DNA of 64,000 bases, from NCBI GenBank assembly GCA_013151645.1, contig JAADHU010000016.1, positions 1 to 64,000 on the forward strand. Direction: 5' to 3'. Within the stretch, counting starts at the first letter, position 1; every line of letters begins with the position of its first letter. The notes below the pieces were generated by a model that saw only the letters and a list, made by a program, of their open reading frames with translations, was not told the origin of the DNA and searched no databases. The position numbers and the translations under genes were made by a program. The DNA comes from Gammaproteobacteria bacterium (GTDB lineage: Bacteria > Pseudomonadota > Gammaproteobacteria > Steroidobacterales > Woeseiaceae). Below are positions 23,864 through 39,813 of this stretch, one piece after another.

Positions 23864-25252
23864 ATGAGACAGTTAAGCAACAGCGGACGCGGACCGGGCA
23901 GACGAACGAGTCTTGCGACGATCTTGCTACTAGCGGTATTCGCGTCGATGACGGTTTCCTGCGATCGGCACAGTGCGAGCGGCGGTTCCTCGATCAGCGA
24001 TACGAGCAAGTGGCTCGATGCCGAATTTCTCAACAATCAAGAACGCTATGCGATGGACCCGGATATGCTGGTCCAGCGGGGATTACTGGCTGACCGCAAA
24101 CATCGCTACATTGACGTCCTGGCGACTGCCACGGGAGCCGGTCCTGATAGCACGCTGTACGCTCTCATCGCGGCGGGTGGTGAAGGCTCATCCGCGGCGA
24201 TTGCGGTAACCGCCGTGAAACCGGACGATGTTCAGTCCGCCCTCGAATTTATCGGCATGCGCGCGGGTCATCCACTGGATGGCTCAAAAACCCATCATTG
24301 GCCTAAAGGCGAGAGAGTCAGTATCACTGTGTACTGGGGTGAACCCGAGGCAGGACTGTTTAATCGATCATTGCGAGCGGAAGAATTGATTACGGATGTT
24401 CGCTGGAATACGACGTTACCCGCACTGGGCTTCCGTTTCGTCGGTGTCCCGGAGGGTCGGAGCGCCGAAGCGATTGCGACGCTGTTCAATGCGACCAATA
24501 CAGTGCTTGAAGTGCCCTATATTGTCGATCGCAAGTCCATCCAGGGACAGTTAGTCGCCAACGAGGAATATCGTTTCTCGCAGGGGCAAAAACTTCGTAT
24601 CCGTATACGGCCGGAATTTCGTGGCGATCGCCGGCGCGTACAGAATCTTGTTCTGGACATACAGGCGGGAGTGGATGTAGAGCAACTGAATAACCTGCGT
24701 GTCAAGCTGTCAACACCGGCAGGCGAAGTACGGGTTGACGGCAATTTCGAATCGACTTTTGTCTATCTCAAAACGTTAATCGACGATGGTAAAGAACCGT
24801 TCCTCCAATTGAGGTTTGCCGATTCGCTGCCGGTTGGTAGTGTGCGGATGATTGCGAGATTCGTCCAGTCATTCCTGATTGCGCAGGATATTCGCATCGA
24901 GCCGAACCCCCCGCAGATTTTTTATAGCGCGTTCCTGCCGCGCGATGTGTGGCGAGATCCCGATCGGCGGGGACGATCCAGTCAGCCAGTGGAGATTCAC
25001 CTGGAGCGTACCGGCAGCGATGGGCTGGGCGGTGAAATTATTCAGTACCCGCTGGCGGCGGAAGCCAGCGCAACGATCAAACGGATACGCTTTGGCAATA
25101 TAAAAGAGCTTGGCGAAGCGATCGAGCGAGGCGAACCCTGGCAGACCGACGGCGTATTCCTGTTTGCCGATCCTTCTGCACCGTACCGTGAAATTCGCCA
25201 GGTATACGAGTTAGTATTCACGTTGTTCCCGAATCTCTATGTTTTCATGTAA
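23864..25252 (+). CDS. probable lipoprotein with YdjY-like segment
   Basis: 462 residues, ATG directly after the previous stop. An N-terminal basic region and hydrophobic core end at a cysteine (FASMTVSC) that could be a lipid-attachment site, though the lipobox is imperfect. Residues about 75-150 (DVLATATGAGPDSTLYALI, VQSALEFIGMRAGHPLDGS) resemble the YdjY module of the upstream gene. The remainder is beta-rich with no known motif. The gene ends 14 bases inside the next coding region, so translation is coupled to the FG-GAP gene. Function unknown. Confidence 0.65.
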   Translation: MRQLSNSGRGPGRRTSLATILLLAVFASMTVSCDRHSASGGSSISDTSKWLDAEFLNNQERYAMDPDMLVQRGLLADRKHRYIDVLATATGAGPDSTLYALIAAGGEGSSAAIAVTAVKPDDVQSALEFIGMRAGHPLDGSKTHHWPKGERVSITVYWGEPEAGLFNRSLRAEELITDVRWNTTLPALGFRFVGVPEGRSAEAIATLFNATNTVLEVPYIVDRKSIQGQLVANEEYRFSQGQKLRIRIRPEFRGDRRRVQNLVLDIQAGVDVEQLNNLRVKLSTPAGEVRVDGNFESTFVYLKTLIDDGKEPFLQLRFADSLPVGSVRMIARFVQSFLIAQDIRIEPNPPQIFYSAFLPRDVWRDPDRRGRSSQPVEIHLERTGSDGLGGEIIQYPLAAEASATIKRIRFGNIKELGEAIERGEPWQTDGVFLFADPSAPYREIRQVYELVFTLFPNLYVFM

Positions 25253-28200
25253 TCGCCATTGTCTTGTATGCGTGTGTGCCTGGCTTGCGCCACTGGCATT
25301 GTTCTCTGTCGTGTCAGCGGAACCAGGGCCTCCCGGGACCGAGTCAATCAGCAGTGAGCCGCTACGTTTACGGTCGCAAGGCAGCGCGACGCTGTTCACA
25401 CGCATCGATGCCGATGTTAGTGGTATCCATTTTCAGATAGATGTCGACAAGAATAATCCGCGACGCCGCCTGTATGAAATAGCCTTCGCCGGGGCGGGCG
25501 TGACGATTGGCGACTATGACGGTGATGGCAGGCCGGACGTTTTCATGACGCACCACTCGGGCAAGGACCGCTTGTACCGGCAGACTGGTGACCTCGTGTT
25601 CACGGACGTTACCGACGAGGCCGGGGTTGGGGGCGGCCGGGAGTGGTCGGCGGGCTCCGTGTTCATCGACATCAACAACGATGGGCTGCTCGATTTATAC
25701 GTTTGTCGTTACGATGCGCCGAACGCGCTGTACGTCAATGCCGGCGACGGGACATTCAAGGACATGGCGGCGGAATACGGTCTGGACTTTTCCGGTGCTT
25801 CGGTCATGGCGGCGTTCTCGGACTACGATCGCGACGGCGATCTTGATATGTACCTGCTAACCAGTCGACTGGCAGCGAACACGGAAGTTGAGCGGCAGAT
25901 TCCGATCGTGCGAAAACCCGGTCCGGGCGGTCGGACGGTGCCGACAATACCGGGGCAGTACCTGGAGTACACGGATTTCATACAGCGACCGAACGGTCAA
26001 TTCGTGCAAATCGCGGCCGGGCAGCGTGACCATCTGTTTCGTAACGATGACGGACGTTTCACAGAAGTTGAGCTGCCGGCAAAGGATGGTCAGAACGGCC
26101 TGCGCGGTAACGATAACTACATGGGCATGAGTGCGGTGTGGTGGGATTACGATAACGACATGTGGCCCGATCTCTATGTCGCCAACGATATGTTTGGTCC
26201 GGATCATTTGTATCACAACAATGGGGACGGAACGTTTACGGATGTAATCGCGACGGCGGTGCCGCACACGCCCTGGTATTCGATGGGCAGTGATTTTGCC
26301 GATATCAACAACGATGGCCTGTTCGATTTTATGGCAGCGGACATGTCGGCGACCACGCACTACGAACAAAAGATCGGTATGGGTGATATGGATTCACAGG
26401 GCTGGTTCCTGGTCAGCGCCGTGCCTCGCCAGTACATGCGCAATGCGCTGTATCTGAATAGCGGTACAGACCGATTTATGGAGACGGCATCGATGGCCGG
26501 CGTCGCGAGCACGGACTGGACGTGGAGCGTCAAATTTGCCGATTTTGATAACGACGGATTCAGTGATCTGTTCATGACCAATGGCATGGTCCGGAATTTT
26601 ATGGACGCGGACGTTCAGCGTGCCATAGCTGCGCAAACTGACTTGCAGGATTACTGGGAAATTCTGAAGGATGAACCGGCAAAGCGGGATACCAATTTCG
26701 CGTTTAGAAATACGAATGGCCTGCAGTTCGAGAACGTTTCACGTGCATGGGGGCTGGACCATACGGGTCTCAGTTTCGGTGCCGCACTCGGTGACCTGGA
26801 CCGGGATGGCGATCTGGATTTGATCGTCAACAACCTTGACGAGCCGGTTAGTCTGTACCGCAACGATTCGGATAGCGGTGGGCGCGTACTCATCAGACTG
26901 CAAGGGGTCGAGAGCAATCGTTTCGGAATCGACGCCAAAGTTCGCGTGGAAACGGACTCGGGTATGCAGGTCAAACAGCTGGCGACGGCACGTGGTTTCA
27001 TGTCGGCTGATGATCCGGTCCTGCAGTTTGGAACTGGCCAGGCAACTATATTGCGTCGTCTGACCGTGCATTGGCCGAGCGGTGCAATACAGACTTTCGA
27101 AAACCTGCCTTCAAATCGTTTCTATACCATTACGGAGCAAGCCAGCGCCACGCCGACGGAATCGCCGCGTGCATCTGCTGCGGTTTTGTACACCGAGGTG
27201 ACTGTTTCGAGCGGCCTGGACTACCGGCACAAAGAGCTGGCGTTCGACGATTATCGTGCACAGCCATTATTGCCTGCCAGGTTGTCGCAACTGGGTCCGG
27301 GAGCGGCCTGGGGAGACGTTGACGGTGATGGCGACGATGACGTGTTTATCGGCGCCGCCATCGGTGAAGCAGGCGCGTTGTATTTGCGTGAAGGTAACGG
27401 GCGCTTTCGTCGCGCTCCCGATGGGCCGTGGGTCAAACATGAGAATCGCGAGGACATGGGCGTGTTGTTGTTCGACGCCGATGGCGACCAGGATCTTGAT
27501 CTGTTCGTCGCGAGTGGTAGCGTCGAAAGTTCCATCGGCGACAACGATTTAGGTGATCGTCTCTATTTGAATGCCGGTGACGGACAGTTTGTCCATGCAA
27601 GCCCGGAAAGGTTGCCTTCGGCGGCGAATTCGAGCGGTGTTGTCGTCGCCAGCGATTTTGATCAGGATGGCGACCTCGATCTCTTCGTCGGCGGCCGAAC
27701 ATTACCGGGACAGTATCCGCTGTCGCCGGACAGTCAGCTTCTAAGAAATGAAAACGGTGTATTCACTGACGTGACCAAGGAGTTGGCACCGGGTCTGCGC
27801 AAGGCGGGCATGGTGACGGCTGCGTTGTGGTCGGACGTTGACGATGATGGCGATCAGGATCTCTTGCTGGCTCTTGAGTGGGGGCCGATCCGGTATTTCC
27901 GCAACGACGAAGGGAGACTGCTGGATTGGACCGCGGTCGCAGGTCTGGCTGAACGGACGGGTTGGTGGAATAGTATCGCCAGTATCGATGTTGATAACGA
28001 CGGGGATACAGACTACGTTGTGGGCAATGCCGGTCAGAACACGAAATACGCTGCAACCGCTGAACAATCTGCGGTGCTTTATTACGGCGATTTCGGGGGT
28101 TCAGGCAAGAGCAACCTGGTAGAAGCACAGTGGGAAGATGACACTGAATTTCCCGTTCGTGGCCTGAGTTGTTCGACGAACGCCATGCCGTTTCTCGCCG

Positions 28201-28970
28201 ATGAGTTTGGCACCTTCGACGCGTTCGCACGCGCGGATATGCAGCAACTGTTTACGCCGAAGAAACTGGGCACCGCCAAACGATTTGCGGCCACGGAATT
28301 ACGCAGTGGCGTCCTGGTCAATGCGGGCGGGAAATTTGAATTTCAGCCGCTGCCGCTGCTGGCTCAAATCGCGCCCGGTTTCGGTGTTGTGAGCGGAGAC
28401 TTCGATCTTGACGGCGTTAGCGATATCTATTTGCTGCAAAATTCATTCTCGCCGCAGGCGGAAACCGGGCGAATGGACGGGGGAATTGGTCAAATGCTGC
28501 TTGGGAATGGTCAGGGTGGGTTTGAAATCCTGTGGCCGTCCTCGAGCGGCCTGATTGTTACCGGTGATGCGAAGGCGCTGACCATAGCGGACTTCAATCA
28601 GGATGGGCGAGCTGATTTTCTCGTTACACGCAATGATGACGCCGTCATCGCCTTCCAACACAATTCCGGAGAGCAGACCAGGAACCGACATCCGTTGTCC
28701 GTGCGCCTGCTCGGACGTAGCGGCAATCCGACGGCCGTGGGCGCGAAGATTGTCCTGGTGCGGGCCGACGGCACTCGCTCGTCAGCGGAGATACATGCGG
28801 GATCGGGCTACTTGTCGCAATCGGCGGCCACGGTTTTTTTCGCCGACAGTGACGCGAACAAAGGCATTGAATGGCGTATTCGATGGCCGGACGGTAGCTA
28901 CAGTAGCCATCCAGTCAGCGAACAGTCCGTGCAAGTCATTCGCTACGGTGCCGGTCTACTTCTGGAATAA
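25239..28970 (+). CDS. secreted FG-GAP/VCBS repeat protein with two UnbV/ASPIC domains
   Basis: 1243 residues with a signal peptide (cleavage near residue 28). Many calcium-binding DxDxDG-type loops are visible: GDYDGDGRPDVF, IDINNDGLLDLY, SDYDRDGDLDMY, GDVDGDGDDDVF, SDVDDDGDQDLL and others, which predict beta-propeller blades. An ASPIC/UnbV domain lies at about 548-634 (TARGFMSADDPVLQFGTG, LTVHWPSG) and a second at about 1150-1238 (AGSGYLSQSAATVFF, WRIRWPDGS). The protein is therefore a tandem duplicate of the CRTAC1-type architecture. It is probably an outer-surface or secreted binding protein and the largest product of the operon. Its 3' end overlaps a convergent gene by 15 bases. Confidence 0.9.
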   Translation: MFSCNRHCLVCVCAWLAPLALFSVVSAEPGPPGTESISSEPLRLRSQGSATLFTRIDADVSGIHFQIDVDKNNPRRRLYEIAFAGAGVTIGDYDGDGRPDVFMTHHSGKDRLYRQTGDLVFTDVTDEAGVGGGREWSAGSVFIDINNDGLLDLYVCRYDAPNALYVNAGDGTFKDMAAEYGLDFSGASVMAAFSDYDRDGDLDMYLLTSRLAANTEVERQIPIVRKPGPGGRTVPTIPGQYLEYTDFIQRPNGQFVQIAAGQRDHLFRNDDGRFTEVELPAKDGQNGLRGNDNYMGMSAVWWDYDNDMWPDLYVANDMFGPDHLYHNNGDGTFTDVIATAVPHTPWYSMGSDFADINNDGLFDFMAADMSATTHYEQKIGMGDMDSQGWFLVSAVPRQYMRNALYLNSGTDRFMETASMAGVASTDWTWSVKFADFDNDGFSDLFMTNGMVRNFMDADVQRAIAAQTDLQDYWEILKDEPAKRDTNFAFRNTNGLQFENVSRAWGLDHTGLSFGAALGDLDRDGDLDLIVNNLDEPVSLYRNDSDSGGRVLIRLQGVESNRFGIDAKVRVETDSGMQVKQLATARGFMSADDPVLQFGTGQATILRRLTVHWPSGAIQTFENLPSNRFYTITEQASATPTESPRASAAVLYTEVTVSSGLDYRHKELAFDDYRAQPLLPARLSQLGPGAAWGDVDGDGDDDVFIGAAIGEAGALYLREGNGRFRRAPDGPWVKHENREDMGVLLFDADGDQDLDLFVASGSVESSIGDNDLGDRLYLNAGDGQFVHASPERLPSAANSSGVVVASDFDQDGDLDLFVGGRTLPGQYPLSPDSQLLRNENGVFTDVTKELAPGLRKAGMVTAALWSDVDDDGDQDLLLALEWGPIRYFRNDEGRLLDWTAVAGLAERTGWWNSIASIDVDNDGDTDYVVGNAGQNTKYAATAEQSAVLYYGDFGGSGKSNLVEAQWEDDTEFPVRGLSCSTNAMPFLADEFGTFDAFARADMQQLFTPKKLGTAKRFAATELRSGVLVNAGGKFEFQPLPLLAQIAPGFGVVSGDFDLDGVSDIYLLQNSFSPQAETGRMDGGIGQMLLGNGQGGFEILWPSSSGLIVTGDAKALTIADFNQDGRADFLVTRNDDAVIAFQHNSGEQTRNRHPLSVRLLGRSGNPTAVGAKIVLVRADGTRSSAEIHAGSGYLSQSAATVFFADSDANKGIEWRIRWPDGSYSSHPVSEQSVQVIRYGAGLLLE

Positions 28971-29498
28971 GGCATCGAGTCGAATCTTCGCCTGGATAAA
29001 AAATATTCCGCCAATCCCGGGGTCCATTCTGTCTGCATGAGTTACATTTCTTACGGCCATTTTTGGTACATAACTCACGTTGATTCCACCGTACCGGTTG
29101 CCGAACGTCATGCTGGGTAATATGGCGGGAAATGGTCGATTATTTTCGACGTCTTCGCGCGTCATGACGAACGCATTCAGGCCGGCATCCATATAGAATC
29201 CGGCGAAGCGGTCCGAGATGATAAGACGCCGATGCAATCCGGCGCCCAGCATGTAAGACATGTTTTTACCACTGTCGAGAAAGGCATTGGCCATCGTCGT
29301 GCGGATCCAGCGCGACCGGGTATCGAACTCGTACTCGATCCCGGCACCGTAATTTTTCTCATTCCAGCCATAGTTGGAATTTACATGGATGGATTTGCCA
29401 TTAATCACCATGTGTAACTTGCTGGCTTCGGCGGTCGTGCTCAGTCCGGCCAGGACGAGTGCTCCAATACAGAGGGCGAATACTTTTGTCATTTTCAT
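28956..29498 (-). CDS. small outer-membrane beta-barrel protein
   Basis: 180 residues from ATG at 29498; a second ATG lies two codons on, at 29492. The signal peptide TKVFALCIGALVLAGLSTTAEA is followed by alternating, aromatic-rich strands (NYGAGIEYEF, GNRYGGINVSYVP) ending without a typical terminal Phe. It resembles small 8-strand barrels of the PagP/PagL size class, but no active-site motif is recognised. It sits directly below a perfect -24/-12 promoter, so close that the transcript would have almost no leader. Convergent with the FG-GAP gene, overlapping by 15 bases. Confidence 0.7.
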   Translation of the reverse strand: MKMTKVFALCIGALVLAGLSTTAEASKLHMVINGKSIHVNSNYGWNEKNYGAGIEYEFDTRSRWIRTTMANAFLDSGKNMSYMLGAGLHRRLIISDRFAGFYMDAGLNAFVMTREDVENNRPFPAILPSMTFGNRYGGINVSYVPKMAVRNVTHADRMDPGIGGIFFIQAKIRLDALFQK

Positions 29499-29510
29499 GA
29501 GCAGATATAA

Positions 29511-29526
29511 AGCAAGGGTCGTGCCA
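29511..29526 (-). promoter_or_regulatory. perfect sigma54 promoter before the small barrel gene
   Basis: The minus strand reads TGGCACGACCCTTGCT, an exact match to TGGCACG-N4-TTGCW. The predicted start site near 29500 lies only about 2 bases before the ATG at 29498 or 8 before the ATG at 29492, which implies a leaderless or nearly leaderless message. AT-rich DNA (29527-29570), including ACAATATGTTGT with inverted ACAA/TTGT arms, lies just upstream. Confidence 0.85.
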
Positions 29527-29924
29527 AAAAATATATTTTTATAAAACAATATGTTGTGACTGAAAGCTAGATAAGGTGTAAATAATGCCGACGCCATATC
29601 CGGTCAATCCATTGGTTATGTCAACGGCGGATTCCCGACTAAGCGATCTGTCCGCACCTGAATTCAGATTGCACTTGTGCCGGCGAGCAGACACCTCCAT
29701 TTCGTAAAAAATTCCGACAGAAAACCCGCCCGCTTGCAGCTGCGACAAACTTGGCCTAAGGTGTTGGTATATCTGAAAATAAGACAAGTTTCGCAGATTA
29801 AAAACAAACGCGTTCGTCTTATTCTCGATGTCGGCATTCCAACAAATAATCAATGCCGAATACGAAATATAAATTTTTGTTTTCATGCGATGTGGGGTTG
29901 CATGAACTCAAGTGGAGGGGAACC
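29527..29924. other. AT-rich intergenic region
   Basis: About 400 bases between the divergent small barrel gene and the 1180-residue protein gene. It is clearly more AT-rich than its surroundings at both ends. Besides the inverted repeat at 29831-29859 and a strong GGAGGGG ribosome site at the right edge, I see no gene. A 115-codon frame on the minus strand (29539-29886) lacks coding character. No clear sigma70 promoter could be fixed. Confidence 0.4.
29831..29859. repeat. inverted repeat upstream of the 1180-residue protein gene
   Basis: TCGGCATT (29831-29838) pairs with AATGCCGA (29852-29859) across a 13-base loop. No T-run follows on either side, so it is not a terminator. It could be an operator or a leader hairpin for the gene at 29925. 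Confidence 0.35.
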
Positions 29925-32900
29925 ATGAAGTTATCACGCCCGTTATTCGTGGCCGCAGGAATCTGTGCGGCTTTCCTGATGTCCGTTGCCAATGTTGCAC
30001 TCGCCGCTCAACCGGTTGTCAGCGCAGTGCCCGGCGACGCAAACAATCCGACGGTCCAGCATCCGATGATTATCGGCCGGCCGATTACGCTCAAAGGCGC
30101 GGTGGACGCAGCGTCCATTGGCGCCAACTGGTCCTGGGACCCGGGTGATGGCAGCGCAGCTATAACCGGCGTCGTCGACGCGACACACTGGGCTGTGTGG
30201 GCGGAACATACCTACGCGGGAAATGCGGGTGACGTATTCATAGCGACCCTGACGGTTGATAACACGGTTGATCCCGTCGGCACGGCCACCTTTGAAATGG
30301 TGGCGCGTGCGGATACGGTACCGAATCGATCGAATACCGCGATCGCGGAAGCGTTGTGGTACATGCACCGAAATCAACAGCGATTTCTCGGCGATGCGAC
30401 CGGCGTGCAAGGGTTGGCGGAATCCATCATTCCGATGGGTGACTGGATTTACCCCAGTTTCGGCGGCACGAACGGTGTTTCAGCACAAGGCGCTACGCTG
30501 AATGCCTTTGAGGCGAATGGCCATCGTGAAAACGGCGATGCCAGCAATCCCTACGCAGAAACGGTCAATCGCGGCATGAAGTACCTGTTTGCCCGGATCG
30601 AGGCCGAGGCTATCAGTCCACAGACGCTCAACCCGATCGACGGCGCTGCCGCGCGAAATGACGATCCTGATTCAAACGGCAACGGACTCGGCATTCGAAC
30701 CGATAGCCGAAATCTGGGTGGTGTCTCCGGCAACGTCGATCAGCCGTACCAGCTGGGCATGGTCATGGATGCGATCGTTGCCTCCGGCACCCCCGGTGCG
30801 CTGACGACGACGGGCCCAACGGATGTCATCGGACGCAGCTATGCCGATATCGTTCAGGATATGGTCGACTGGTATGCAATGGCCCAGTCGGACAACATGA
30901 GTCATGGTGGCTGGCAATACAGCGCATTCAACAATGTATCCGGCAGTCAGGATAACTCCGCCAGTGGGTGGGCGGCGACCGGAATTGTGGCCGCCGAAGA
31001 CGTTTTCGGCGCGACCGTGCCGGCCTGGCTCAAAGTGCGAAATCAGAACGGCCTGGAGTTCACGGATAACGAGTCTGACGTGAGCGACAACGACGGTGTT
31101 CACGGCTACAACAGTACCGGCCCGATATGGGGGCCCTTTGGCACCAGCGGCGCGGCGATGGTGCAGATGTCGATGAACAGTTTGCTGGCAACAACATCAG
31201 CGACGCCTGACGAGCGGTGGGTGCGGACGGAAAACAAGTTTCGCCGAAATTTCGACAATCTCACCGGCACGAACCCGCTGAAACGCTATTACTACGGCAT
31301 GTTTAATTTCTCCAAAGCCATGCGGACCGCAAAACCGGCGCCGGTAACCATCATTGGTACGCAAGTTGGCGCGGCCGAGGGCGGCGTTGGCTGTGGACCC
31401 AGCGTAAACTGCGCGGCGAACGGGCCGCAACCGCTGGACTGGTATAACCATCCGACCTCCGGATTGGCGCAAACGGTCATTAGCTACCAAGCGACGACGG
31501 GTGCAAGCATCGGTCGGTTTGGCACGCAAAATGCGGTCGGTGAAAGTAGCCAGGCCAAACACGTGCAGCCGTGGGGTACGCAGATTCTGACGCGTACGCT
31601 GGCACAGGCGGGTCCGATTGCGGTTGGCAGTGTGTCGCCGAATCCCGGCGGCGAGAATTTCCCGATCACTCTGGATCACTCTCGTTCCTTCCATCAGGAC
31701 CCAAACCGTACGCTGGTTCTGTTCGAGTGGGACATCGATAACGACGGTACTTTTGATATCAGCAGCGCAGATGCCAGCCCGGCTCCGGCGCTTGACGTGC
31801 CCGGCGGCTACGATTGTGGTGCCGGTGGACTGCCGTGCTCGCGCATTCTCAACTTGCGCGTAACGGATGATGCGAGTCCGCCAGTGACCACGACGGATGT
31901 TATTATTCTCGATCTAACCATTCCCCCCCACGCACCGACTGCCGTTTCCGGTGGTCCTTACATGGTTTGTGCCGGCGATATGTTGACGGTCGACGGTAGC
32001 GCGTCTTTCGATATCGATCAGGGCAATAGTGAGGCTGGCGCAGCAGACACCGACCGCATCACATCCTATGAGTGGGAGCTTGATGGTGCCAGCCCGTTCA
32101 ACTATGCGGAAGCAAATACGGCCGTGGCACAGATTACCTACGCAACGGCCGGCGTACGAAACATTGGATTGCGCGTGACTGACAATTCTTCGGTTTCTTA
32201 TCCGAGCGCATCGCTCGTTGATCTGACCAATACTGACAATACACAAGTCATCGTCGCCGATTGCATCACCGCGGATCTGGCTGTTTCGGCGACGGCCGGC
32301 GGGTCTGATTTTATTGTTCCGACCGAATTTACGGTGACGGCAACGATCAGTAACGGTGGTCCGGATGATGCTTCCCAAGTGCGGGTAGTGGCGAACTTGT
32401 CCGACCTGTTCACGATCGTCGATGTAACGCCGACACAGGGAAGTTGTGCGGCGACTGGCATCGTCCTGGCGGGCCAGGTGCAATACGAATGTGGCATCGG
32501 TGATCTGGCGGCGGGTTCGAGTATAGACATCGCCGTTGTTGTCAGTGCGGCAGATGAGGGCAGTGCTGATTTTGAGTTTACCGTCGATATTGATTCAGGC
32601 CCGTTGGTGGCATTGAGTGACCCCAACCTGGCGAATAACAGCATCATGGCGACGGCGATTCTTATCGATGAGGTGATTGTCGAGATCGTTGGTAAGGGCA
32701 AGGGCACCGGTAGCGTGGGTTTGCTTGAAATTCTGTTGTTGGTTGGAGCGGTGGGCCTCGTTTTACTGCTGCGAAGACGCCGGATACCTGCAACGACAAC
32801 CTTTGCAGCGTTCATTAGCATAGGCCTGTTGCTCACGGCAACAATGGCCAGTAACACGGTCGAGGCACAGGAACCCATCAAAAAAGGTTTCTATCTCGGT

Positions 32901-33467
32901 GGTGCCATCGGCAACGCGGTCACCGACGTTGATGCCACGGAATTCAGTCGAGGACTCGTTGATGCGGGATTCAATGTCAGCGATGTCACACTCGGCGACG
33001 ACTCCTACGGATGGAAAATTTTTGCCGGCTATATGTTCAATGATTATGTTGGTGTGCAGGCTTCAATGCTCGATTTGGGAGGTTTGCAGAGTCAACTGAC
33101 TGCTTCTGTGCCACCGAACCAGATTGATGATTTGCTGCGGGTTAGCACAAACCTGTTGCCGGGTCGCGGCAAAGGTTTTCTGGCCGACATCGTATTGCAG
33201 TACCCGATATCGAACCGCTTTGCGGTTTACGGAACCCTCGGCATGTTTTTGGCTGAGCCTTCAACGAGACAGACCGTAGTCGCGGGCGGGACCGGATCGG
33301 CATCACGGTCCGAAGGTGATGACGATTTTTCGGCGAGTATCGGCGTCAGTTATGCTGCAGGCAAGCGCGCCACGGTCAAGCTTGCCTGGGAGAGATACGA
33401 TATCGATGGCCTGAAGACGGACTTCCCGATGGTGGCCGTTCAGTTCGTGTTCGGTGACGGACGCTAG
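29925..33467 (+). CDS. mosaic secreted protein: cyclase-like repeats, PKD, CTERM-like anchor, OmpA-like barrel
   Basis: 1180 residues from an ATG behind GGAGGGG; an in-frame ATG at 29853 lacks a signal peptide. Order seen: signal peptide (1-28), a PKD-like beta domain, an alpha-toroid region with prenyltransferase/squalene-cyclase-like helices (IAEALWYMHRNQQ, LNAFEANGH), further PKD-type domains (FEWDIDNDGTFDI, YEWELDG), and a DUF11-like domain (ADLAVSATAGG, SNGGPDDASQVRV). At about 923-955 a Gly-rich stretch, hydrophobic helix and RRRR follow, like a C-terminal sorting signal. Then comes a second signal-like helix ending VEAQEP and an 8-strand OmpA-like barrel (GFYLGGAIGNAVTDV to the end). 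A strong terminator follows. Confidence 0.75.
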   Translation: MKLSRPLFVAAGICAAFLMSVANVALAAQPVVSAVPGDANNPTVQHPMIIGRPITLKGAVDAASIGANWSWDPGDGSAAITGVVDATHWAVWAEHTYAGNAGDVFIATLTVDNTVDPVGTATFEMVARADTVPNRSNTAIAEALWYMHRNQQRFLGDATGVQGLAESIIPMGDWIYPSFGGTNGVSAQGATLNAFEANGHRENGDASNPYAETVNRGMKYLFARIEAEAISPQTLNPIDGAAARNDDPDSNGNGLGIRTDSRNLGGVSGNVDQPYQLGMVMDAIVASGTPGALTTTGPTDVIGRSYADIVQDMVDWYAMAQSDNMSHGGWQYSAFNNVSGSQDNSASGWAATGIVAAEDVFGATVPAWLKVRNQNGLEFTDNESDVSDNDGVHGYNSTGPIWGPFGTSGAAMVQMSMNSLLATTSATPDERWVRTENKFRRNFDNLTGTNPLKRYYYGMFNFSKAMRTAKPAPVTIIGTQVGAAEGGVGCGPSVNCAANGPQPLDWYNHPTSGLAQTVISYQATTGASIGRFGTQNAVGESSQAKHVQPWGTQILTRTLAQAGPIAVGSVSPNPGGENFPITLDHSRSFHQDPNRTLVLFEWDIDNDGTFDISSADASPAPALDVPGGYDCGAGGLPCSRILNLRVTDDASPPVTTTDVIILDLTIPPHAPTAVSGGPYMVCAGDMLTVDGSASFDIDQGNSEAGAADTDRITSYEWELDGASPFNYAEANTAVAQITYATAGVRNIGLRVTDNSSVSYPSASLVDLTNTDNTQVIVADCITADLAVSATAGGSDFIVPTEFTVTATISNGGPDDASQVRVVANLSDLFTIVDVTPTQGSCAATGIVLAGQVQYECGIGDLAAGSSIDIAVVVSAADEGSADFEFTVDIDSGPLVALSDPNLANNSIMATAILIDEVIVEIVGKGKGTGSVGLLEILLLVGAVGLVLLLRRRRIPATTTFAAFISIGLLLTATMASNTVEAQEPIKKGFYLGGAIGNAVTDVDATEFSRGLVDAGFNVSDVTLGDDSYGWKIFAGYMFNDYVGVQASMLDLGGLQSQLTASVPPNQIDDLLRVSTNLLPGRGKGFLADIVLQYPISNRFAVYGTLGMFLAEPSTRQTVVAGGTGSASRSEGDDDFSASIGVSYAAGKRATVKLAWERYDIDGLKTDFPMVAVQFVFGDGR

Positions 33468-33504
33468 CTTCAGACCGGCCGGCAACATGGGCGCAATGAA
33501 CCGT

Positions 33505-33547
33505 GGCGCTCGGCATATGAATTTCATATGCCGAGCGCCTTTTTTTT
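33505..33547 (+). terminator. strong intrinsic terminator
   Basis: A perfect 17-base inverted repeat (GGCGCTCGGCATATGAA and its complement around one central T) spans 33505-33539 and is followed by eight Ts. It lies 38 bases after the stop of the 1180-residue protein gene. The only credible start codon of the next gene (33517) lies inside the stem, so the hairpin may also control that gene. Confidence 0.92.
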
Positions 33548-34119
33548 GCAGTATGCTTTGCCTGGTCGTCGTCAGCGCATGGGCGATGGATTCACCGGAG
33601 CCACGGGTCGCTGCCATCATTGCATCCGGAAACAATTCCATGGTGTTGGTCGAAGAGAATGCCGGCAAACAAAACTGGTACCGAGTCGGCGATCTTGTGG
33701 GGGACGCACGAATCGAACACATCGACCCGGACTGGATTGGACTGAGCACCACGGACGGTGAGGTGCGTTTATATCTTCGCGGTGACACATACAAAGAAGC
33801 TCCGGAGAAGGCGACGTCCCCGGCCGAGCAACCGCCAAGGGAAGTTTCGCGCAGTTACCGCTTTGTTAACCTGATCTCGCGGGTGGACTCTGCTGTTCCT
33901 GGAACTGCGGCACAATCGGAGCAACTCGGCGTACGCAGTCTGAACGAGATTTTCGGTCTGGCTGAGCGCGCAAAGATTACCGCAATCAACCGGGTCGAAG
34001 TATCAACCGTGTCTGAAACGCGAGCGGCCTTGAGAAGCCAGTTGCTTCAGGACGAACCCATTCGGATTGCCGTCGACAACGCCTATACCAAAGTGTTGTA
34101 CGTGATCCCCGAACGGTAG
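33517..34119 (+). CDS. GspC-like (type II secretion HR domain) protein
   Basis: 200 residues from ATG 33517, with a signal-like or membrane segment (FFCSMLCLVVVSAWA). An upstream in-frame ATG at 33454 would place 21 extra residues before it. The region RVAAIIASGNNSMVLVEENA and WYRVGDLVGDARIEHIDPDW matches the HR domain of GspC/PilP-like proteins that link inner-membrane pumps to secretins. A C-terminal PDZ-like region follows (ITAINRVEVSTVSETRAALR). No other secretion genes are nearby, so it is an orphan. Translation start lies in a terminator stem, so expression must use read-through transcripts or a promoter within the hairpin; a start at 33553 would trim the signal segment. Confidence 0.65.
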   Translation: MNFICRAPFFCSMLCLVVVSAWAMDSPEPRVAAIIASGNNSMVLVEENAGKQNWYRVGDLVGDARIEHIDPDWIGLSTTDGEVRLYLRGDTYKEAPEKATSPAEQPPREVSRSYRFVNLISRVDSAVPGTAAQSEQLGVRSLNEIFGLAERAKITAINRVEVSTVSETRAALRSQLLQDEPIRIAVDNAYTKVLYVIPER

Positions 34120-35694: not shown

Positions 35695-37629
35695 ATGATC
35701 TCAGCAATTGCTTCAGCATTTTTCTCGTCGCTGCGCCTGCAGACTGTGCTTCTGTTCGCGGCGGGCTTCGTCGTCATGGCAACCGCGCCCGTAGTTGCCG
35801 AGGAAGCCGTCGACAACATCGTGGTCACGGGTGCACGTACTACCGATGAATTGTCCGAGATCTCGAATACGACCAGCGTCGTTCGCAGGGCGGAAATAGA
35901 AGCTCGCAATAAAACAAGCGTCGCGGACCTGCTCAGAAATTTGCCGGGTGTCCACGTTGTACAACCGTCCGGACAAGGCGGTGTCGCCAGGATTTTTCTT
36001 CGCGGAGGCGATCAGAACCTGACGATGATATTGCTGGATGGCATCAGGGTGAACAACCCGATGGACACCCGCGGGTCGGCATTCGATTTCTCGGTGATCA
36101 ATATGAACGATATCGAGCGGATCGAAATTGTGCGTGGCCCGCAGTCTGCCGTATACGGGTCCGACGCGCTCGCCGGCGTCATAAATATTATCACCAGGGA
36201 ACCGGCCGATAAGCTGGGAGGCTCCGTCTTCGCAGAAATAGGCGCTGACGACTATTTTCGGGCGGCGCTGGATTTGTCGGGTCCGGTTGGTGATGGCGGC
36301 GGCTTCTCCCTGCGCGTGGCAAGCAAAGACGATGGAGAGCCCGTAACAGGAACGACTTTCGAAAGCGACTCTGTGACCGGCCGGTTGACATTCGGCGGCG
36401 GAGAGAGCTGGCAAATGCGCCTCGTTGGAAGTTATTCGGAGAGCAACGGCAGCGCGTTTCCAGAGGATAGCGGCGGCGCTGCCCTGGCGGTACTCAGGAC
36501 CGTCGACACACGCTCGGCCGAAGATTTTCGACTGGGCCTCAACGGTAGCGTGGTTCTATCGGATCGCTGGACACTGAATGTCCTTGCCACCTGGTATGAA
36601 AACGAGTCCGGCTATTTCTCGCCCGGCATAGCCCCCGGCATTCGTGGTTCTGTCCCTCCGAACGGTGGCGACGCGACTCTGCAGCGCGCCGATCTGGCGG
36701 TGAACGCCGTCGTGAGTATCAGCGAGGCCCTCAAGGGTACGTTCGGCGTCGACTACTACGACGAAGACGGTGTTTCCGACGGATTTGTTGAGTTTTTTCC
36801 GGGTTTTAGCATTCCCGCCGGCTATGACTTCAACCGCAGTGTGGTCGGTGCTTTCGGTGAACTGCACTACAAAATCGCCTCCGGTCCGACACTACTCGCG
36901 AGCGTACGCCGGGACAATCCCGATGAGGAATCTGGCGAGACGACCAGCAAGCTGGGCATCGTGCACGAATTCAACGACGGCCAGACCAGCATGCGCGCAA
37001 ACTGGGGGCAGGGCTTTAGCTTGCCAGGATTTTTCGCCCTGGCCAGCCCATTGGTGGGCAATCCGGATCTTCTCCCGGAAACCAGCACGAGCTTCGATAT
37101 CGGTGTAACACGATGGTCTGCGGACAAACGAACCAGTGGCTCGCTGACGTTGTTCCGCAACCAGTTCAAGGATTTGATCGACTTCGATTCGACCCTCTTT
37201 ATGATGGTGAATCGCGAGGGCGTGGATGCGGACGGTGTTGAGATGCAGTTGGACTACTCGGCCAGCGAAAATCTCTACTTCAGAATGCAGGCGACGTATA
37301 CCGACTACTCAGTAGAAAACAGCGAAACGCCGTTGCGGCAACGGCCGGAGTGGGCGGGCAGCGTTGCGATGCGCTGGACACCAGCCGAGCAATGGCTCAT
37401 CGACGCGTCGTGGCTCTTCGTTGGTGAAACATTCGATTCTTCGATTCCGACCGATGACCTGTTTCTTGACAGCTACAGCCGACTGGACGTAACCGCGACG
37501 CTGAAGTATTCAGAAAAACTTCATCTTCTTCTTTCTATCGACAACCTGCTTGACGAAAATTATCAGGAAGCGATCGGCTTCCCACCGCCTGGATTCAGGG
37601 CGAGATTGGGACTTCGATACCGGTTCTAA
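35695..37629 (+). CDS. TonB-dependent outer-membrane receptor (BtuB-like)
   Basis: 644 residues. Signal peptide to about residue 35, TonB box region DNIVVTGART, plug domain (about 45-165: ADLLRNLPGVHVVQPSG, IFLRGGDQNLTMILLDGIRVN, IEIVRGPQSAVYGSDALAGVINI), then a 22-strand type barrel ending in a terminal aromatic (ARLGLRYRF). Size and plug sequence are closest to vitamin B12-type receptors, but the substrate is not proven. It should import a large or scarce ligand using TonB energy. Transcribed from a sigma54 promoter, which is uncommon for such receptors. A second receptor follows after 18 bases. Confidence 0.9.
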   Translation: MISAIASAFFSSLRLQTVLLFAAGFVVMATAPVVAEEAVDNIVVTGARTTDELSEISNTTSVVRRAEIEARNKTSVADLLRNLPGVHVVQPSGQGGVARIFLRGGDQNLTMILLDGIRVNNPMDTRGSAFDFSVINMNDIERIEIVRGPQSAVYGSDALAGVINIITREPADKLGGSVFAEIGADDYFRAALDLSGPVGDGGGFSLRVASKDDGEPVTGTTFESDSVTGRLTFGGGESWQMRLVGSYSESNGSAFPEDSGGAALAVLRTVDTRSAEDFRLGLNGSVVLSDRWTLNVLATWYENESGYFSPGIAPGIRGSVPPNGGDATLQRADLAVNAVVSISEALKGTFGVDYYDEDGVSDGFVEFFPGFSIPAGYDFNRSVVGAFGELHYKIASGPTLLASVRRDNPDEESGETTSKLGIVHEFNDGQTSMRANWGQGFSLPGFFALASPLVGNPDLLPETSTSFDIGVTRWSADKRTSGSLTLFRNQFKDLIDFDSTLFMMVNREGVDADGVEMQLDYSASENLYFRMQATYTDYSVENSETPLRQRPEWAGSVAMRWTPAEQWLIDASWLFVGETFDSSIPTDDLFLDSYSRLDVTATLKYSEKLHLLLSIDNLLDENYQEAIGFPPPGFRARLGLRYRF

Positions 37630-37647: not shown

Positions 37648-39813
37648 ATGCAAGACAATGTCTGTGAGTTAACAAAAAACATGGCAGACGGACGTTCGAA
37701 ATTCCTGCCAGGGCTGCTTTCATGCGTTCTGGTGCCGGGCGCCGTGTACGGTGAGGATCTGCCACCGAGCGCATACGATCTTGAGGAAATAGTCGTGACC
37801 GCATCGCGTCGCGAGGAAAAGGCGCTAGAGATTCCGGCGACCGTCAACGTGCAGGGCATGATCGAGTTACAGGAAATTCGTCAGGTGCGAACCATCCCGG
37901 AAGCCATGCGCGAGATCTCCGGAGTCATGGTGCAAAAGACCGGGCACGGACAAGGTTCACCGTATATACGCGGTTTTACCGGGCTGCGCACATTGTTTCT
38001 GATTGATGGCATTCGATTGAATAACTCGACGTTTCGCGAAGGGCCGAACCAGTACTGGAATACCGTAGACCCATTTAGTGTATCGCGTCTCGAACTGGTC
38101 AAAGGTCCCTCGTCGGTGCTTTACGGGAGCGATGCGATCGGTGGCACGGTAAATGCGATCAGCAAGGCGTACGGGTACGCTATTCCCGCTGAATCGGCTT
38201 TGCGCAGCCGCGTAGTTCTGCGCGGCGCGACCGCGGAACGTTCTTTCATTATTCGTCCGGAAGCCGATTATTCGAATGGTGCTCTGTCCGTTCAGGGCGG
38301 TATTTCCCTGAAATCCTTCGGAGATCTTGAGGCTGGCGGCGCTACTGGCAGGCAGCCAAAGACGGGTTACGACGAGCAAGATGTGGATTTCACGATTAAG
38401 TACGATATTGATGATAACCGCAGGGTGGTAGCCGCATTTCAACGCGTTAATCAGGATGACGCATGGCGGGTACACAAGACAGTGTTCGGTAAGAGTTGGC
38501 GTGGAACGACGGTCGGTAGCGAACTGCAACGCTCGCTCGACCAGGAAAGGACGCTCGCATATTTGCAATATCAGGCGAGGGATCTTGCGTCCTGGGTGAG
38601 TGACGTGACGCTGAGTGTTTCCTATCAACAGCAGAAAGAGGAGCGCTTGCGTATACGGACCCGTGGACGGGTCGATCGGCAGGGAACCGACGTTGGCACG
38701 CTCGGACTCTGGGGCCAGATAAACGTACCAAGCCGGCTGGGTCTATGGACTGCGGGAACAGAAGTCTATCGGGATGAGGTTGACTCGTTCCGAAGAAATT
38801 TTGATACGGACGGCAATTTGACCAGTGTCGCCATCCAGGGACCAGTGGCAGATGACGCGTCATACACGACGGCTGCCGCCTATGTGCAGAATGTTCTGCC
38901 GATCGGCGACAAAGGCAGCCTATATACCGGACTTCGATATACATCGTCCAAATTAGACGCTCAGACCGTTGAAGATCCACAATCCGGTAACGTGATATCG
39001 GTGGACGACGAATGGTCGAAGCTGACAGCAAGCATTCGCTACAGTCACGCGATCGATGCCGATGGAAAAACACGCGTGTTCGGCGGGGTATCGCAAGGTT
39101 TCCGGGCGCCGAATCTCTCTGATATGACCCGCTTCGATTCCGCACGCAGCAACGAAGTTGAGACGCCGGTGTTTGGGCTTGGGCACGAAAAGTTCGTCAA
39201 CTATGAACTGGGTATCAAAATCGTTCAAGACCGATTCGACGGTCAGCTGTCCCTGTATTACACCAATATCGACAACCTGATTATCAGGACGCCAACCGGC
39301 CGCATAATCGACGGGGAAAACGAAATTTCGAAGCAGAATTCCGGCAGTGGTTTCGTCAAGGGAATCGAATTGCAGGGGCGCTATCATCTTTCGGATGCAT
39401 TGTATTTATTCGGTAACCTGACCTGGCTCGACGGCGAAGTAGACACATTTCCAACTGCAAACAGCCCGCTTGTCGCTGAGCCACTGGATCGACTCATGCC
39501 CACCCGACTGTATCTGGGCAGTCGCTGGCGGCCATCGGAGAGTGACTATTGGCTGGAAGCGTTACTGAATATTGCGGATAACCAGGACAAGTTATCGACC
39601 AGAGATCAGGCTGATACTGATCGCATTCCTGTCGGTGGCACGCCCGGTTACACTGTGTTGACGTTGCGAGGCGGGTGGGATATCTCGGACAGTCTGGGGC
39701 TGTCGCTGTCGCTGGAAAACGTGTTTGATGAGAACTACCGGATACATGGCTCAGGGTTGAATGAACCCGGTCGAAACCTGATTCTTTCCCTGTTCTGGCG
39801 TCCGTACCGTTAG
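37648..39813 (+). CDS. TonB-dependent outer-membrane receptor
   Basis: 721 residues. After a signal-like segment (FLPGLLSCVLVPGAVYG) comes the TonB box LEEIVVTASRREE, a plug (IPEAMREISGVMVQKTGHGQG, YIRGFTGLRTLFLIDGIRLNN, LELVKGPSSVLYGSDAIGGTVN) and a large barrel with the C-terminal TBDR signature FDENYRIHGSGLNEPGRNL, ending LILSLFWRPYR. It resembles haem/siderophore-class receptors by size. Substrate unknown. It lies directly behind the first receptor, so both probably share the sigma54 promoter at 35556. Confidence 0.9.
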   Translation: MQDNVCELTKNMADGRSKFLPGLLSCVLVPGAVYGEDLPPSAYDLEEIVVTASRREEKALEIPATVNVQGMIELQEIRQVRTIPEAMREISGVMVQKTGHGQGSPYIRGFTGLRTLFLIDGIRLNNSTFREGPNQYWNTVDPFSVSRLELVKGPSSVLYGSDAIGGTVNAISKAYGYAIPAESALRSRVVLRGATAERSFIIRPEADYSNGALSVQGGISLKSFGDLEAGGATGRQPKTGYDEQDVDFTIKYDIDDNRRVVAAFQRVNQDDAWRVHKTVFGKSWRGTTVGSELQRSLDQERTLAYLQYQARDLASWVSDVTLSVSYQQQKEERLRIRTRGRVDRQGTDVGTLGLWGQINVPSRLGLWTAGTEVYRDEVDSFRRNFDTDGNLTSVAIQGPVADDASYTTAAAYVQNVLPIGDKGSLYTGLRYTSSKLDAQTVEDPQSGNVISVDDEWSKLTASIRYSHAIDADGKTRVFGGVSQGFRAPNLSDMTRFDSARSNEVETPVFGLGHEKFVNYELGIKIVQDRFDGQLSLYYTNIDNLIIRTPTGRIIDGENEISKQNSGSGFVKGIELQGRYHLSDALYLFGNLTWLDGEVDTFPTANSPLVAEPLDRLMPTRLYLGSRWRPSESDYWLEALLNIADNQDKLSTRDQADTDRIPVGGTPGYTVLTLRGGWDISDSLGLSLSLENVFDENYRIHGSGLNEPGRNLILSLFWRPYR

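Follow-up and report, generated by a model that had tools for sequence, protein, structure and literature searches.

The analysed window is a 64,000-nucleotide stretch of contig JAADHU010000016.1, from a Gammaproteobacteria bacterium of the Woeseiaceae (assembly GCA_013151645.1). On its + strand, a single open reading frame (ORF) of 1204 amino acids (29853-33467) encodes a secreted half and an outer membrane barrel with no stop between them. The frame stays open through a sorting-tag-like segment, a second signal-like helix, and the OmpA-type barrel, confirming the in-frame join of two proteins that an earlier note on this DNA had described. The ATG at 29925 (MKLSRP...) is the likely start, chosen from its signal-peptide-like N terminus, and the first signal peptide, MKLSRPLFVAAGICAAFLMSVANVALAA, is predicted at 29925-30008. 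No Pfam family is found above the cut-off between this peptide and the PKD domain at 31929-32198 (PKD_4, E 8.5e-07, amino acids 693-782). The last folded part of the first half is a DUF11 domain at 32274-32654 (E 6.4e-14, amino acids 808-934).

The tag-like segment begins with the Gly-rich signature GKGKGTGS at 32691-32714. It continues at 32715-32783 with a hydrophobic helix (32715-32771), predicted to run from outside to inside, and the cluster RRRR (32772-32783). The second, internal signal-peptide-like helix is at 32784-32867; its hydrophobic stretch is 32802-32849, and it ends in a cut-like site after VEA and before Q, with the A at 32865-32867. The chain across the join reads EVIVEIV-GKGKGTGS-VGLLEILLLVGAVGLVLLL-RRRR-IPATTT-FAAFISIGLLLTATMASNTVEA-QEPIKKGFYLGG. 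The window contains no ATG, GTG, or TTG from RRRR to the second helix, and because of this the Arg cluster of the tag seems also to be the n-region of the second signal. The predicted mature, 8-stranded OmpA-type barrel occupies 32868-33464 and begins at 32886 in the ORF reading. In total, 227 amino acids follow the tag in frame, and the tag is not at the extreme C terminus.

The second half matches Pfam OMP_b-brl (E 4.7e-16, amino acids 992-1191) and OmpA_membrane (E 3.4e-07). A fragment containing the join and the barrel was modelled with AlphaFold2 from six sequences (mean predicted local distance difference test score, pLDDT, 68.3; predicted template modelling score, pTM, 0.61). The barrel blocks have a pLDDT of 59-88, and two helices are modelled at fragment residues 28-47 and 53-72, corresponding to the tag helix and the second signal. 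When the barrel model was searched with Foldseek, the best matches were OmpA structures, including 9fzc (E 2.7e-10, target TM 0.74). The protein belongs to the OmpA-type 8-stranded barrels by sequence (Pfam) and by fold (Foldseek).

The join recurs well beyond the window. Among 60 relatives, three genomes of another genus have a single uninterrupted frame that matches all the way from DUF11, across the tag, and on into the barrel. The window protein and these three form profile A1, in which GTGSxG is invariant across the four rows. Searches with A1 covered 296 genomes of the order and those with a broader profile, A2, 369 genomes of the class; the joins of long-frame matches were then read. 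A2 also matches the PDB sequence 2k0l (E 9.9e-19). Besides the window, 33 further fusions were found, of which 32 carry a barrel and the other, G005, carries TPR repeats; the total is 34 fusion proteins in 33 genomes and 14 families. This is a lower bound because weaker and unlisted rows were mostly left unread.

The A1 rows at E 2.4e-58 to 6.8e-15 number 58, of which 54 were examined together; the other four are G005:C98, G039, G278, and G139:C31, and G039 gave nothing useful. The window and six same-family fusions rank above these 54 order-level barrel matches. Ten of the 54 are fused with a tag, three stand apart as genes a short way behind a tag-ended ORF, two belong to long frames that lack a tag, and the other 39 have no such join. 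Of 24 class-level loci, seven are fused, three are split pairs, and 14 are neither; further reading in the class added five fusions. Five fused loci among the A1 matches in named metagenome-assembled genomes (four Woeseiaceae, one labelled Chromatiales) overlap the counted set. Long or extended frames without a visible tag join were not counted (G249:C22, G127:C182, G358, G399, G453, G405, G663, two of G607, G454, G511, G139b, G278, G256, and others).

The first halves are diverse and include DUF11, InlB repeats (one also with a lectin match below the cut-off), HYDIN/VesB-type Ig, DUF7948 with Calx-beta, FG-GAP/UnbV, fn3, and cadherin domains. Among 15 relatives scanned, 14 have a second half that matches OmpA-type barrel models, and in the other it matches TPR. 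In this TPR case (G005, L105:5544-8141, + strand), a purple acid phosphatase/fn3 part, a tag, a signal-like helix, and TPR repeats share one frame. No other listed match in 107 genomes covers both of its halves, and in four fn3 relatives (L208, L209, L210, L224) the protein stops at the tag or soon after it.

The shared element of the 34 proteins is a helical hairpin. For each protein, a script searched around Arg/Lys clusters for the split of highest hydrophobicity, and all 34 have two hydrophobic stretches at this split. Since the script chooses the most hydrophobic split, the lowest hydropathy values (1.42 and 1.39) weigh more than this count. The loop between the stretches has a mean charge of +3.7/-0.09, and a lenient A/V/S/T-x-A site is present in 33 of the 34. 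A hairpin pattern (two hydrophobic 15-mers, a loop of 2-15 residues, at least two R/K, at most one D/E), with thresholds derived from these same fusions, occurs once in 33 of them, at the join or immediately ahead of it, in a scan of 45,058 amino acids; the 34th has one extra match near its N terminus. By this count, the hairpin exceeds what chance would give. In four overlapping pairs of relatives (two close, two distant, none including the window), the ratio of nonsynonymous to synonymous substitution rates (Ka/Ks) is 0.12-0.19 in the first half, 0.36-0.63 in the join, and 0.08-0.20 in the barrel. By this measure, both halves are under purifying selection in the four pairs. Judged from these patterns, the join acts as signals, not as a domain.

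The earlier note proposed searching the genome for rhombosortase or exosortase-like genes, and a rhombosortase is present. ORF G000:C21:14727-15182 of the window genome (G000) scores 149.1 bits with TIGR03902, against a cut-off of 84. It is divergent beside a run of pseudopilin-like genes, which we read as gspG-L, and GspD is above its cut-off in the window genome and in 10 of 12 genomes searched. Rhombosortase is above the cut-off in all 33 fusion genomes, compared with 126 of the 369 class-sample genomes and 42 of the 60 relatives. For the 14 fusion genomes within the class sample, Fisher's test gives p 1.8e-7, or 6e-5 with nine families counted once, both figures being optimistic owing to shared ancestry. 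In G605, a rhombosortase gene directly follows the fusion on the same strand, 41 nucleotides on. G584 (L187:861-7105) encodes a 1870-amino acid tag-ended protein whose ORF overlaps the start of a rhombosortase gene, with an OmpA-type barrel gene convergent next door.

The tags, each trimmed to end with its Arg run, were scored against the NCBIfam sorting-tag models. GlyGly-CTERM is at or above its cut-off in seven of the 34 and matches 23 at E up to 10. MYXO-CTERM matches 14 at E up to 10, none above the cut-off. The G476 fusion carries a JDVT-CTERM tag (34 bits, cut-off 27) in a genome with a JDVT protease (98.7, cut-off 75) as well as a rhombosortase. A JDVT protease is also above the cut-off in G605, and none is in G000, G010, G230, G466, or G308. 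The window tag has no Cys and no JDVT-CTERM or MYXO-CTERM score above the cut-off.

Single halves also exist. Barrels of this family stand alone with their own signal-peptide-like start, and six split pairs, a tag-ended gene followed by a barrel gene in tandem, were found in G064 (twice), G085, G308, G461, and G662, in families f16 and f25, with their tags assigned by eye. G064, G308, G461, and G662 carry a fusion elsewhere in the genome. The DUF11-to-tag part of the window protein matches G011 (38%), where the frame ends at a Cys-bearing tag. The earlier note had looked to separate homologues of each half. The barrels appear as single genes, some close behind tag-ended ORFs, but the 516-amino acid stretch at 30150-31697 of the first half matches only G391 in the 369 genomes, where the contig edge ends it, and nothing among plasmids or in the PDB. 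The note also took a widespread fusion lacking single halves as evidence against two joined genes; the fusion is widespread, but single halves exist. In L146, L150, L152, L154, L155, and L184, barrels or OmpA-type proteins lie directly after ORFs that share an NVPAP/NVPSP-like tail. Such an ORF and its barrel make another recurrent pair that involves this barrel family.

Barrel relationships were examined on a quick tree of 61 sequences whose backbone is weak. It includes 31 of the 34 fusions, all but G133, G237, and the TPR protein G005; among the single barrels, G289 was excluded since the search for its motif failed. A single origin of all fusions is rejected on this tree (approximately unbiased test, p-AU 0.012), so that fusion, or splitting, probably happened more than once. 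Parsimony counts eight changes of state, of which the starred branches force only one. Without constraint, the closest rows to the window are single barrels, which runs counter to our reading. Holding the window with ten fused rows (f1, f16, f36, f146), a clade chosen after the tree was seen, was slightly better (log-likelihood +4.6, p-AU 0.611), and the window fusion may be inherited. Of the earlier note's suggestion that two genes were fused, perhaps by loss of a stop, the fusion of two proteins stands. Mere recent stop loss is rejected because several genera and families share the join and the tested pairs conserve both halves.

Read from sequence, the window gene combines in a single frame a recurrent hairpin, made of two hydrophobic helices with an Arg-rich loop between them, a site of the AxA type, and then an OmpA-type barrel. 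The best explanation, which we consider likely, is a polyprotein matured by signal peptidase I and rhombosortase, and the best reading of the join is that the halves separate after export, as the earlier note supposed if the tag is cleaved. Export would begin with the first signal peptide. The tag helix would stop transfer, leaving RRRR in the cytoplasm, and the second helix would restart it as an internal signal peptide. Signal peptidase I would cleave after VEA and release the barrel to the outer membrane. Rhombosortase would cleave at the Gly-rich motif to release, and probably lipidate, the adhesin-like first half, to be displayed at the surface by the type II secretion system. The barrel would then be the outer membrane partner of the first half, as TraB is for TraA.

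Several observations weigh against this polyprotein reading. The tag of the window combines a Gly-rich motif, a hydrophobic helix, and a basic cluster, and in this tripartite form it has the look of a C-terminal sorting tag that the earlier note gave it, but it passes no curated tag model. It is below all NCBIfam cut-offs (TIGR03501, 8.0 bits versus 15.5) and is absent from the TIGR03501 listing when cut out differently. For this reason, the protein is not filed as a GlyGly-CTERM protein, though its tag probably functions like one. Moreover, 26 of the 34 tags fall below every curated cut-off. Rhombosortase is common in the relatives, so its co-occurrence with the fusions is partly kinship. The hairpin helices have low confidence in the AlphaFold2 model (block pLDDT 34-43). 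The TraAB-like partner role of the barrel is suggested by linkage and analogy.

The sub-threshold window tag suits a different, rather unlikely explanation, in which only signal peptidase I cuts, at the AxA-type site, and rhombosortase is uninvolved. The tag helix, the Arg loop, and the leftover second helix would then keep the first half in the inner membrane as its anchor. An internal hairpin would be an unusual rhombosortase substrate, and Haft (2011), in the text available, stresses the extreme C-terminal location of GlyGly-CTERM. This explanation is opposed by the presence of rhombosortase in every fusion genome, by the gene pair in G605, and by the swap in G476 of a JDVT tag together with a JDVT protease. 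In addition, sorting tags are said to function even in mid-protein in the available part of Guo, Haft and Wall 2025 (PMC11980579).

Internal start codons raise the further prospect of two overlapping genes in the same frame, with the barrel made mainly from a start in the tag helix or loop and the fusion minor or incidental. The tag helix of the window has a GTG with GGAG 2 nucleotides upstream, a poor spacing. In 15 of the 34, an ATG, GTG, or TTG lies within the loop or opens the second helix as its first codon; three of these have a Shine-Dalgarno-like (SD-like) 4-mer 4-11 nucleotides upstream. Four of the 34, including G426, have such a combination inside the tag helix. Together, seven of 34 have a start codon and SD-like 4-mer in the tag helix or loop, which also counts against a single polyprotein. 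The remaining 27 have none at this spacing, the ATG immediately ahead of the G238 Arg run has no counterpart in G016, a near relative, and an open frame maintained in 34 proteins requires another reason. Overlapping genes are improbable as the general explanation. In the G426 fusion (L192), an ATG lies just before the Arg run of the join with GGAG 8 nucleotides upstream, and internal initiation may be an additional source of the barrel in this fusion.

The order of passenger and then barrel in one chain recalls type V secretion and would suit an uncleaved, autotransporter-like protein whose barrel anchors the first half in the outer membrane. The translocator barrel of an autotransporter has 12 strands and is fused directly to its passenger. 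The window protein differs because its barrel is of the 8-stranded OmpA type, by sequence and model, and because a two-helix hairpin with an Arg-rich loop separates the halves. Same-family barrels also occur alone with their own signal-peptide-like start, and an autotransporter-like chain is very improbable. Least credible of all is an assembly or sequencing artefact or a recent, functionless stop-codon loss: the genome is a draft of 83 contigs and a related pair in G064 is separated by one in-frame TGA, but the same join is found in other genomes, both halves are under purifying selection in relatives, and the window barrel can be placed with the fused clade.

In the open-access literature on rhombosortase/GlyGly-CTERM and internal tags, no report of an internal GlyGly-CTERM was found. 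The Haloferax ArtA substrate reportedly has a tripartite tag away from its C terminus, in an archaeal setting with Tat export, an archaeosortase, and no barrel. The cytochrome b/c1 precursor FbcH of Bradyrhizobium is a two-protein precursor cut at an internal signal peptide; it is respiratory and has no sorting tag. Closer to the window protein is Myxococcus xanthus MXAN_5598, which, in the accessible text of Guo, Haft and Wall, has a large adhesin-like N-terminal half, an internal MYXO-CTERM tag, and a C-terminal outer membrane barrel/OmpA half (PMC11980579). Its authors suggest a two-gene fusion, like TraA plus TraB, with the N-terminal part processed (PMC11980579). There, MXAN_5598 is described as one atypical protein with MYXO-CTERM/myxosortase and an extra OmpA wall-binding domain (PMC11980579). 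In contrast, the fusions reported here have mostly GlyGly-CTERM-like tags, 14 families, split pairs, and linkage to rhombosortase, though some relatives, such as G308, likewise have an OmpA domain behind the barrel.

TraA and TraB of M. xanthus also pair a tagged surface adhesin with an OmpA-domain envelope partner; as described in the available text, their ORFs overlap by four bases and one function needs both (PMC3325183). They differ in being two genes with MYXO-CTERM that serve cell-contact membrane exchange (PMC3325183); the likeness drawn here is one of description. VesB of V. cholerae, in the source text available, is cleaved by rhombosortase, receives a glycerophosphoethanolamine adduct, and is displayed through type II secretion (PMC6219818, PMC13393428). 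The window protein resembles this GlyGly-CTERM/rhombosortase pathway in its Gly-rich motif, single hydrophobic helix, and basic tail, and its genome carries rhombosortase and GspD. Unlike in VesB-type proteins, the tag is internal, with a second signal peptide and a barrel behind it. What is new here is the recurrent rhombosortase-linked variant; the MXAN_5598-type internal tag plus barrel, like TraA and TraB fused, is already known.

Directly behind the stop of the fused gene, at 33505-33539 (+), is an intrinsic-terminator-like hairpin of 16 pairs followed by T8. The scan returned six sites of all kinds, versus 5.2 in shuffles, and this stem is the longest by far. The next ORF, 33454-34119 (+), has a weak PDZ match (E 0.06), and its start is likely later because the listed start precedes the hairpin. 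As a GspC-like candidate it was rejected, with a weak Pfam match only (E 0.022) and no meaningful PDB match. Upstream are a 1243-amino acid FG-GAP/UnbV_ASPIC protein (25239-28970, +), and the JDVT-tagged fusion of G476 has an FG-GAP/UnbV first half. A PagP-like lipid A palmitoyltransferase family protein is encoded at 28956-29597 on the - strand (Pfam E 1.2e-10). Among the neighbours in nine relatives, the only other matches are those of window ORFs 35695-37629 and 37648-39813 to one L097 ORF.

To our knowledge, bacterial polyproteins that are split into two exported proteins are rare. The join looks like a built-in route to two matched surface proteins from one gene. A wider proposal, offered tentatively, is that sorted surface adhesins across Gammaproteobacteria have an OmpA-type barrel dedicated to them, encoded by a tandem gene or within a polyprotein whose tag lends its Arg cluster to the next signal peptide as the n-region. 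The two could form a TraAB-like machine at the surface that arose several times independently, using rhombosortase, JDVT, and myxosortase tags. The idea of an adhesin partner is testable because split pairs and fusions coexist side by side. If the polyprotein reading is true, the fusions would be a recurrent case of this kind, with two unrelated membrane proteases cutting at one hairpin that they share. The known substrates of rhombosortase would then extend from C-terminal to internal tags, and an outer membrane partner would be named for sorted adhesins.

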